NCBI GenBank assembly: GCA_028875875.1
Contig: JAGWUV010000021.1
Span: forward strand, 1 to 64,000
From: Bacteroidota bacterium
GTDB lineage: Bacteria > Bacteroidota > Bacteroidia > Chitinophagales > Chitinophagaceae
Length of the DNA: 64,000 nt
Direction of reading: 5' to 3'
Under the pieces are notes generated by a model, which searched no databases, had not been told where the DNA came from, and saw only the letters and a program-made list of their open reading frames with translations. The position numbers and the translations under genes are program-made. Below are positions 2,213-4,386 of this stretch, piece by piece. Numbering within the stretch: position 1 is the stretch's first letter; the number at the start of each line of letters is the position of its first letter.

Positions 2213-2329
2213 AAAAAGCACCAAGCTGGTTCGTACCGGTTTTGATTGCTCATACCCGGATACTCACTAACCCGATGCTTTCCGAGGTTGCTTTTCATTT
2301 CTTTTTACAGATTTGTTAAGCTTCCCCTT

Positions 2330-2360
2330 TTTGGGAAGTAGCTTCTTTTGAAGGGTGCTG
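2330..2360 (-). repeat. hairpin motif copy B in candidate RNA
   Basis: On the minus strand this 31-nt segment contains CAGCA-C-CC-T-TCAAAAGA followed by GC and CTTCCC. It matches the segment at 2627-2657 at 25 of 31 positions. Both copies sit in the arms and loop of a hairpin whose loop is TCAAAA-like. The internal duplication suggests repeated structural modules rather than random sequence. Confidence 0.5.
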
Positions 2361-2626
2361 TCTTCCCTGGTTTTAAGAACCGCTAACAGTTTTTAAAACC
2401 ATTGGCTCGTAAGGTACTTTTAGTTCCTCCGACAGCCTTGCAGTTACTTACCCTCCGGCTTTTACTGCATTGAAAAGATTTGTTTTCTTTCAAAAACAAT
2501 ATCCTTTTCTTTTGGGCCTTGGAAGCCGTTGTGTAACTTCCTTATCCCTTTGGTTGCAGATCCTGTTTCCGTTACAAAAAACTTTTTCTAACAACCAGTT
2601 CATACAAGCGTATCCGCTTATATGAG

Positions 2627-2657
2627 TTCGGGAAGCTGCATCTTTTGAGGGATGCTG
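2627..2657 (-). repeat. hairpin motif copy A in candidate RNA
   Basis: Second copy of the 31-nt motif, with minus strand CAGCA-T-CC-C-TCAAAAGA then GC and CTTCCC. Here the stem is GAAGC/GCTTC outside and GCATC/GATGC inside. The bases that differ from copy B fall partly in paired positions, as expected if structure rather than sequence is kept. That covariation reading is an inference from two copies only. Confidence 0.5.
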
Positions 2658-3230
2658 AGTGCTTCTTTTAACAGTACAAATCTGTAACGATCCCTACTGT
2701 TTTTAGAGAAACTGTACAATCCCTTTCGGTTTTGTTTTTCTCAAAGATGCAGGCCTTCATACCTACACCTTCTTGAAAGTGTTGAGTTACCTCTCTGCTT
2801 TCATTGTGAGTTAATTTTCTTCTTCAAGAGCCTTAACTCGTTTTGCTGAAGGAAATTTTCCTTTGGCTTTGAAAAAGAAGCTTTTTGAAGATCTTCTTTT
2901 CCCGGATGAAGAACTTTGGATTCACACCCGTCATTGTTACGTTTTTTCTTTTCAGATAGTATCGTTATCAATGCAGAATAAAGGTACTTTTATAAACCCT
3001 CTGTTTCCAAATTTTAGGAGGTTTAGTTATGCAAGTTTTGTGCACTGCAAATGCAGGTGAATTAAAGGTTTTGCACAGTATTTACGCACATTTTCATCGA
3101 TTTAATTGCTTGTTTTAGTGGCATGTATGAATGAACAAAATGATGTAAATTCTTTTTACTGATCACTTGTTCTTGCACTGCAGGTTTAATAGATGCATTA
3201 TCAATCATTTAAGCTTATATATTTGTGGTT

Positions 3231-4320
3231 ATGACAATAGAACAAATCAAATCAATGCGGGACAGGGTTAGTGTCCTAAGGAGGTTTCTTTGACTACGAT
3301 AACAGGTCGTACAAAGTAGAACAAGACAAGCAGCTTTCGCTTTCGCCGGGCTTTTGGGATGATAACACCCGTGCCACGGCCATCATGAAGGAAATTAAAG
3401 TGAATGAATATTGGATGAAGCTTTTTACTTCGGTGGAAACCGCAGTGGAAGACTTTGCCGTTTTGTTTGATTTCTGGAAAGGTGGAGATGCAACGGAAGA
3501 AGAAACTAAACAGGCCTATGATGCTGCCATCGCTGCCATTGAAGATGCTGAATTCAAGAGCACCTTAAACCAACCTGAGGATGAATTGCCTGCAGTACTG
3601 CAAATTAATCCCGGTGCTGGTGGAACTGAAAGCCAGGATTGGGCTGAAATGCTTTTCAGAATGTACCGGATGTATGGTGAAAAACAGGGTTGGAGAGTAA
3701 CGGAATTGGATTTCCAGGAAGGAGATGGAGCTGGTATTAAAACGGCTACCATGCAATTTGATGGACCTTTCGCATACGGTTTTTTGAAAGCAGAAAGTGG
3801 TGTTCATCGCCTGGTTCGCATTTCACCTTTTGATAGCAATGCTCGACGCCATACTTCTTTTGCTTCCGTATTTGTTTATCCTTTGATCGATGATAGTATA
3901 GAGATCGAAGTAAATCCCGCAGATCTGGAATGGGAGTTTTACAGAAGTGGCGGTAAAGGCGGGCAAAACGTGAACAAAGTGGAAACGGCTGTTCGTTTGA
4001 AACACATTCCCAGCGGAATCATTGTTGAATGCCAACAGGCGAGAACACAAGGCGAAAACCGTGAAATGGCCTTGAAAATGTTGAAGAGCCGTTTATATGA
4101 AGAAGAGCTGAAACGCCGCGAAGAAGCAAAGAATGCAGCTAATGCAAATAAGAAAAAAATTGAATGGGGAAGCCAGATCCGAAGCTATGTTTTCCATCCG
4201 TACAAGATGATCAAAGACCATCGTACCGATTATGAAGTGGGAAATGTTGGACCTGTAATGGATGGTGAGCTGGATGGATTCATCAAAGCCTACCTGATGA
4301 TGGAAAAAGATGCCGAATAG
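3231..4320 (+). CDS. prfB: peptide chain release factor 2 with programmed +1 frameshift
   Basis: Release factor 2 recognises UGA and UAA stop codons and triggers peptide release. Translation starts at ATG 3231 and runs 20 codons to CTT 3288-3290, followed by in-frame TGA 3291-3293. Skipping T3291 enters the +1 frame (GAC at 3292), which continues to TAG at 4318-4320, giving 362 aa. This fits the usual RF2 length. The RF2-specific SPF tripeptide is at residues 198-200 and the catalytic GGQ at 243-245. The codon-skipping slip site is the classical autoregulatory device: low RF2 stalls the ribosome at UGA and promotes the shift. A plain ORF call from 3385 would lose the first 51 residues. A bidirectional terminator follows the gene. 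Confidence 0.97.
3279..3294 (+). promoter_or_regulatory. prfB programmed +1 frameshift site
   Basis: AGGAGG (3279-3284), then TTT, CTT (P-site slippery codon), TGA and C. This matches the conserved bacterial prfB element: a Shine-Dalgarno-like stimulator three bases before CUU, a UGA stop and a following C that weakens termination. It is one of the very few strong Shine-Dalgarno sequences in the window. Confidence 0.95.
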
Positions 4321-4344: not shown

Positions 4345-4386
4345 AAAGAGAAGAGGCCGCATCATTGATGCAGCCTCTTCTCTTTT
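4345..4386. terminator. bidirectional terminator between prfB and queA
   Basis: Long GC-containing hairpin with arms AAAGAGAAGAGGC and GCCTCTTCTCTTT and a short inner stem GCATC/GATGC. It lies between two convergent genes, with T-rich sequence on both exits. Confidence 0.85.

Follow-up and report, generated by a model that had tools for sequence, protein, structure and literature searches.

What occupies the roughly 1,000 bases, devoid of any credible gene, that separate the stop codon of a kinase gene (position 2212) from prfB (start at about 3231) in a bacterium of the Chitinophagaceae? The window, by which we mean the whole analysed stretch of 64,000 nt from contig JAGWUV010000021.1 (GCA_028875875.1, Bacteroidota bacterium), had been the subject of a sequence-only reading that took this interval for a candidate structured RNA of a new kind, encoded on the minus strand. 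That proposal is supported here by homologues, by compensatory changes and by a folding energy below that of shuffled sequence and, while there are no transcript data, we are close to certain that 2214-2975 is a member of an RNA family absent from Rfam. The same reading held 2213-3000 to be free of genes, which agrees with the longest ORFs (ATG, GTG or TTG start) that lie fully within it, at 51 aa on the plus strand and 56 aa on the minus strand; its end point of 3000 has to be corrected, as it takes in the promoter. The RNA proper is a hairpin-array ncRNA of about 760 nt that runs from about 2214 to 2975 on the minus strand, an assignment that rests on the z-score of its fold, on a homologous 3' domain and promoter, and on the lack of an Rfam match. 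Its transcription start is inferred from the -7 box and its end from the terminator.

For 2213-3000, the folding energy of the minus strand is -258.7 kcal/mol, compared to a mean of -172.5 for dinucleotide shuffles (z -13.7), whereas the plus strand reaches -218.7 kcal/mol (z -6.65). The minus strand is therefore favoured, as had been supposed from a G-U stem at 2601-2624 and a GNRA-capped stem near 2725; both stems are real, the first as a minus-strand stem at 2600-2625 and the second as a GAAA-capped stem at 2706-2742 of the same strand. Restricting pairs to a span of 48 nt left the z of 2214-2981 (minus strand) at -13.9; segments of 768 nt from elsewhere in the window, 160 in all and used as controls under span-limited folding, had a mean z of -0.6 and a minimum of -5.1. 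The folding signal is thus local, with local hairpins accounting for -223.7 of the -254.3 folding energy, and a folding energy no lower than that of shuffled sequence, which would have spoken against the candidate, was found in neither calculation.

Span-limited folding resolves 19 tandem hairpins at 2284-2973 (minus strand), back to back, with a mean period of 35.9 nt and linkers of 0-6 nt. The earlier count of at least eight stems was right in that the stems exist and too low in number, given 19 hairpins and a terminator domain; all hairpin counts depend on folding. The conserved 3' domain (2214-2282, minus strand), delimited by matches to the covariance models R1 and R2 described below, comprises a terminator hairpin, GAAAGCAUCGGGUUAGUGAG.../...GCUUGGUGCUUUU, with a GCAA-capped inner stem, and the terminator U-tract, read from the sequence at 2211-2217 on the same strand, shares bases with the stop codon of the kinase gene, which converges on the RNA. 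The top match in the 64 kb to R3, a model of the hairpin module, is a minus-strand hairpin at 2284-2327 with a UCUGUAAAAAGA loop (14.6 bits, E 0.22), and the second is a minus-strand hairpin at 2632-2665 with the family loop CCUCAAAA, a near-copy of the hairpin at 2333-2367 (E 0.63). Each match is weak singly, and both lie inside the RNA and on its strand. A direct repeat joins 2330-2360 and 2627-2657 (81%), and the modules of the window resemble one another only modestly, the top pair scoring 27 compared to a mean top of 18.8 for shuffles, 2 of 200 of which scored as high. The long arrays combine several loop types, among them GNRA, UUCG, GUAAAA and CCUCAAAA.

Relatives and their structure

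A blastn search over 396 family genomes first revealed that the 3' end recurs elsewhere. R1, a covariance model of this 3' end whose training set includes the window, matches the window's own domain at 2214-2282 with 73 bits (E 1.6e-17) and finds homologues in 110 of 396 Chitinophagaceae genomes, representing 45 of 103 genera. Among the carriers are MAGs labelled Pseudobacter and Parafilimonas. The RNA is single copy in 106 of these 110 genomes and present twice in four, where the copies sit at separate places (L033/L078 in G166, L100/L107 in G148, L077/L086 in G264 and L072/L074 in G248). The weakest R1 matches are not all genuine, and L062, L120 and L063 were dropped after inspection. R2, a covariance model made from 23 relatives with the window left out, matches the window at 2214-2330 (E 7.1e-7) and is positive in 59 of 197 family genomes; outside the Chitinophagaceae, it has no match among 295 genomes drawn from the class. 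Stricter filters were applied in R2 searches over 40 genomes, and distant members may be missed. Some early candidates were discarded: the first blastn matches in relatives (L002-L005, 1e-4) are chance matches, L003 being coding, L005 rplM-like and L002 short and purine-rich, and L010, L011, L018 and L019 are without the 3' motif and likewise resemble chance matches.

The RNA had been described as matching no known class, and this description stands. Scanning the window against 4227 Rfam families with cmscan gave no match at gathering score and nothing credible at E up to 10, 20 homologous loci had no Rfam match, a tRNA and tmRNA search found none, and neither Rfam nor ARAGORN gave a match to tmRNA, RNase P, SRP RNA or group I/II introns. 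There was no match in phage and plasmid searches and none bearing the 3' motif in viral contigs, and we found no earlier description of the hairpin-array RNA in the literature, where only open-access papers were covered.

Homologues with compensatory changes, which had been named as the support to look for, emerge from R1 and R2 and from covariation in two alignments. In alignment A6 (23 sequences), 26 of 35 pairs change on both sides, and the covariation score of 0.372 compares with 0.227 for shuffled alignments, none of 500 of which equalled it, and with 0.06-0.12 for slid partners. The single hairpin module, aligned without gaps in A7 (22 sequences), scores 0.645 vs 0.237 when shuffled. The structure was derived from the same sequences and the A7 modules were picked for pairing, and both biases favour the real over the slid versions; nevertheless, compensatory changes are numerous. 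In the module, a purine internal loop, commonly GGAA/GGAA, separates 6-9 bp of outer stem from an inner stem of 3 bp, which is capped by the 8-nt loop CNUNAAAA. It is the 3' domain and not the hairpin loops that holds the most conserved sequence, with AAAGCAUCGGGUUAG near invariant across the founding set, and much of the conserved 3' sequence falls within the terminator stem. R1 was built with AAG paired to CUU in the 3' domain, which proved mistaken (helix 2 was only 69% paired), and refolding yielded the outer stem of 13-14 bp used in R2.

Between genera, the hairpin count differs by a factor of about twenty, with a range of 1 to about 19. Most relatives are compact, with 1-3 hairpins in 100-180 nt, 4-7 times shorter than the window RNA, and many have one module hairpin only. 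At the 71 loci with a recognised promoter, the 3' domain lies at most 160 nt from the -33 box in 55, corresponding to 1-3 hairpins, while 12 measure 400-760 nt. Arrays of 10-19 hairpins are found in several genera, including that of the window, with 19 hairpins in the window, 16-17 in L080, 13-14 in L060 and about 17 in L115; L104 has 4 module hairpins. Members from genus g24 (L064, L091, L094, L097, L098 and L111) possess a different long body of about 450-495 nt that is not a clean hairpin array; within it, the 18-nt block AACAGCGGAAGCCTTGCC is invariant, and ACAAWGCAGAAGCTA is conserved ahead of the 3' domain.

The promoter and its direct repeats

A sigma-70 scan found nothing, as is expected for Bacteroidota, whose sigma-A promoters have TTTG at -33 and about 19-21 bp to the -7 element. 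The RNA promoter meets this pattern: on the minus strand, a -33 element, TTTGG (3007-3011), is followed after 21 bp by the -7 element TACCTTTA (2979-2986), which has the same place and spacing in homologues, and TTTGG-21 bp-TAnnTT is present in 65 of 71 loci. The -7 consensus for sigma-A in Flavobacterium is TAnnTTTG (PMC9723704). Farther upstream, the family has three direct-repeat boxes, GTG[C/G]ATAAC, GTGCAnAAC and GTGCATAAC, spaced by 12 and 11 bp, and box 3 stands 23 bp before TTTGG. On the minus strand of the window, these correspond to box 3, TTGCATAAC (3026-3034), 23 bp upstream of TTTGG; box 2, GTGCACAAA (3037-3045), 11 bp from box 3; and box 1, CCTGCATTT (3049-3057), which keeps the 12-bp spacing of the family and is degenerate, a weak match in this genome. 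As boxes were sought at fixed positions in the tally of 71 loci, their conservation is slightly overstated; the raw listing agrees with it.

The tri-box occurs once per genome in 19 of 25 RNA-bearing genomes, in 18 of them at the RNA promoter, and the remaining site (in G188) is poor and without the RNA-type promoter arrangement. The promoter pattern is present in 58 of 97 RNA loci compared to none of 38 genomes without detected RNA, indicating that promoter presence tracks RNA presence.

Box 1 is often TGTGGATAA (L024, L033, L044, L052 and others), a perfect DnaA box. Control of the RNA by DnaA, in a role as transcription factor, therefore stays possible. That the DnaA-box-like boxes mark a chromosomal origin was considered and rejected, given that RNA positions are scattered in single-contig genomes and that the promoter spacing is fixed.

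These features bear on whether there is an RNA gene at all, or merely a decayed coding region or a hairpin element that acts at the level of DNA. Hairpins do also form in DNA, and the plus strand has a z of -6.65, yet G-U pairs clearly favour the minus strand; different genera share the promoter, the terminator and covariation that passes through G-U intermediates, and the element is mostly single copy and contains no reading frame. We find the absence of an RNA gene scarcely credible.

Possible function

The interpretation that we tentatively favour, which may well prove wrong and which is inferred without transcript or protein data, is that of an independently transcribed, regulator-driven ncRNA whose hairpins sequester an RNA-binding protein, with a logic like that of CsrB. 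A dedicated activator or repressor would bind the boxes, whose arrangement as direct repeats, each offset from the next by about one turn of the helix, makes a protein of the response-regulator type probable. The tandem hairpins would be repeated docking sites that titrate the protein, from which we propose that array length sets capacity. While the logic would be that of CsrB/RsmZ, the protein would be a different, unidentified one. Sequestration of RsmA in Pseudomonas requires several GGA motifs, and rsmX, rsmY and rsmZ have a common upstream activating sequence (PMC2375449).

Like CsrB/CsrC and RsmX/Y/Z, the RNA has its own, probably regulated promoter, repeat numbers that vary and no tie to a single neighbour; its chain of repeated small hairpins ends in a strong terminator, and its upstream promoter element is largely confined to the sRNA gene, with one poor extra site. 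It is not, however, a CsrB, because CsrA is absent from the genomes searched and the signature of GGA in hairpin loops is unmet. CsrA (PF02599) was not detected in 12 genomes, including G000, while the controls E. coli, B. subtilis and T. maritima were positive; only one GGA lies in a hairpin loop, and the total of 16 is near the 13.3 expected from shuffles. Membership of the CsrB/RsmZ group was rejected on these grounds, and the loop, the purine internal loop and the phylum differ as well. Little is understood of how Bacteroidota exert global control after transcription, and CsrA is absent from the 12 genomes tested.

Several observations count against sequestration by the hairpins. The mixed loops of the long arrays are weaker than a single repeated binding motif, compact members with a single hairpin are a poor sponge, the long body of g24 is not a clean hairpin array, and the strongest conservation lies in the 3' domain rather than in the loops. 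This last feature would suit a base-pairing sRNA in which an unpaired UAGUAAGUA stretch of the 3' domain does the work and the upstream hairpins merely protect or present it. The near invariance of AAAGCAUCGGGUUAG in the founding set and the size of the compact members, which is usual for sRNAs, are in keeping with such a role, and GibS and FopS of Bacteroides act via base pairing (PMC11697453). We nonetheless judge it unlikely, as it leaves selection for up to 19 regular hairpins unexplained and much of the conserved 3' sequence is inside the terminator stem. The RNA does resemble the Bacteroides sRNAs GibS and FopS, and the RNA-binding protein RbpB, in comprising a Bacteroidota sRNA with a standard promoter and a link to an RNA-binding protein, RbpB being theirs (PMC11697453) and that of the hairpin-array RNA only inferred. 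FopS is multicopy and about 65-70 nt long (PMC11697453), whereas the hairpin-array RNA, mostly single copy, can reach about 760 nt; the contrast is one of copy number and length only.

Alternatively, the RNA could be structural, forming an RNP or an RNA-only scaffold as might the large ornate RNAs OLE, GOLLD and ROOL, with which it shares size, strong structure and the lack of an open reading frame. The length, structure and isolation of the gene, together with the invariant internal block of the long g24 members, are compatible with this idea, but it is improbable in our estimation: most of the folding energy is explained by local hairpins (-223.7 of -254.3), the array is variable in number and has compact relatives of 100-180 nt, and there is no Rfam match to OLE, GOLLD or ROOL. 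The folds of those RNAs are intricate and long-range, and they are not known to have compact relatives.

A regulator of RNA polymerase that stands in for 6S RNA was also considered, given that searches of 14 family genomes with the 6S (RF00013) and 6S-Flavo (RF01685) models gave no match, so that the niche looks open. The absence of 6S-Flavo is not established, since the RF01685 search had no positive control. 6S-Flavo is likewise a Bacteroidota ncRNA, of about 108 positions, and neither model matched the window or its homologues. The hairpin-array RNA has several hairpins instead of one long hairpin with a central bubble, and its occurrence is patchy (110 of 396 genomes), whereas 6S RNA is expected to be near universal, making a 6S substitute highly improbable. 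ANTAR-binding RNAs have paired hairpins with hexaloops bearing A1 and G4, a signature that is unmet by the hexaloops of the window (ATGAAG, GTTACA, TGTAAC and GTAAAA), none of which has both.

Returning to a regulator-driven RNA that titrates a protein, it is possible, if rather doubtful, that this is a new regulatory RNA whose dosage has been evolutionarily tuned by hairpin number (1 to about 19), with a tri-box regulator nearly dedicated to it and an RNA-binding protein hitherto unknown as a target of sponge RNAs. A widespread, mostly single-copy RNA with a near-private promoter offers an entry to both the RNA-binding protein and the regulator, and the varying hairpin count provides a natural series in which to test if number sets regulatory capacity.

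Neighbouring genes

The neighbours of the RNA, named by inspecting translations, vary between genomes. About half of the RNA loci are downstream of yajQ, and others adjoin tyrS, a ferredoxin-NADP-reductase-like gene or, in the window, L028 and L052, prfB. The RNA gene is thus not bound to one neighbour, which fits a stand-alone gene. At yajQ-linked loci (e.g. L036, L066-L069, L077 and L104), the RNA closely follows yajQ and shares its strand, but has its own promoter.

In the window, the convergent neighbour is a plus-strand ORF of 663 aa (221-2212) that was named a sensor histidine kinase of PAS/GAF type by inspection, without a family scan. The divergent neighbour, recognised by reading the sequence, is prfB (3231-4320, plus strand; main-frame ORF 3385-4320). 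Near its start (3231-3300) is an in-frame ...AGG AGG TTT CTT TGA C, the well-known site at which release factor 2 undergoes programmed +1 frameshifting, and ORF callers begin prfB at 3385. Directly 3' of prfB, a strong inverted repeat, AGAAGAGGCCGCATCATTGATGCAGCCTCTTCT (4348-4385), precedes a convergent queA-like gene on the minus strand and is a probable bidirectional terminator for the two genes.
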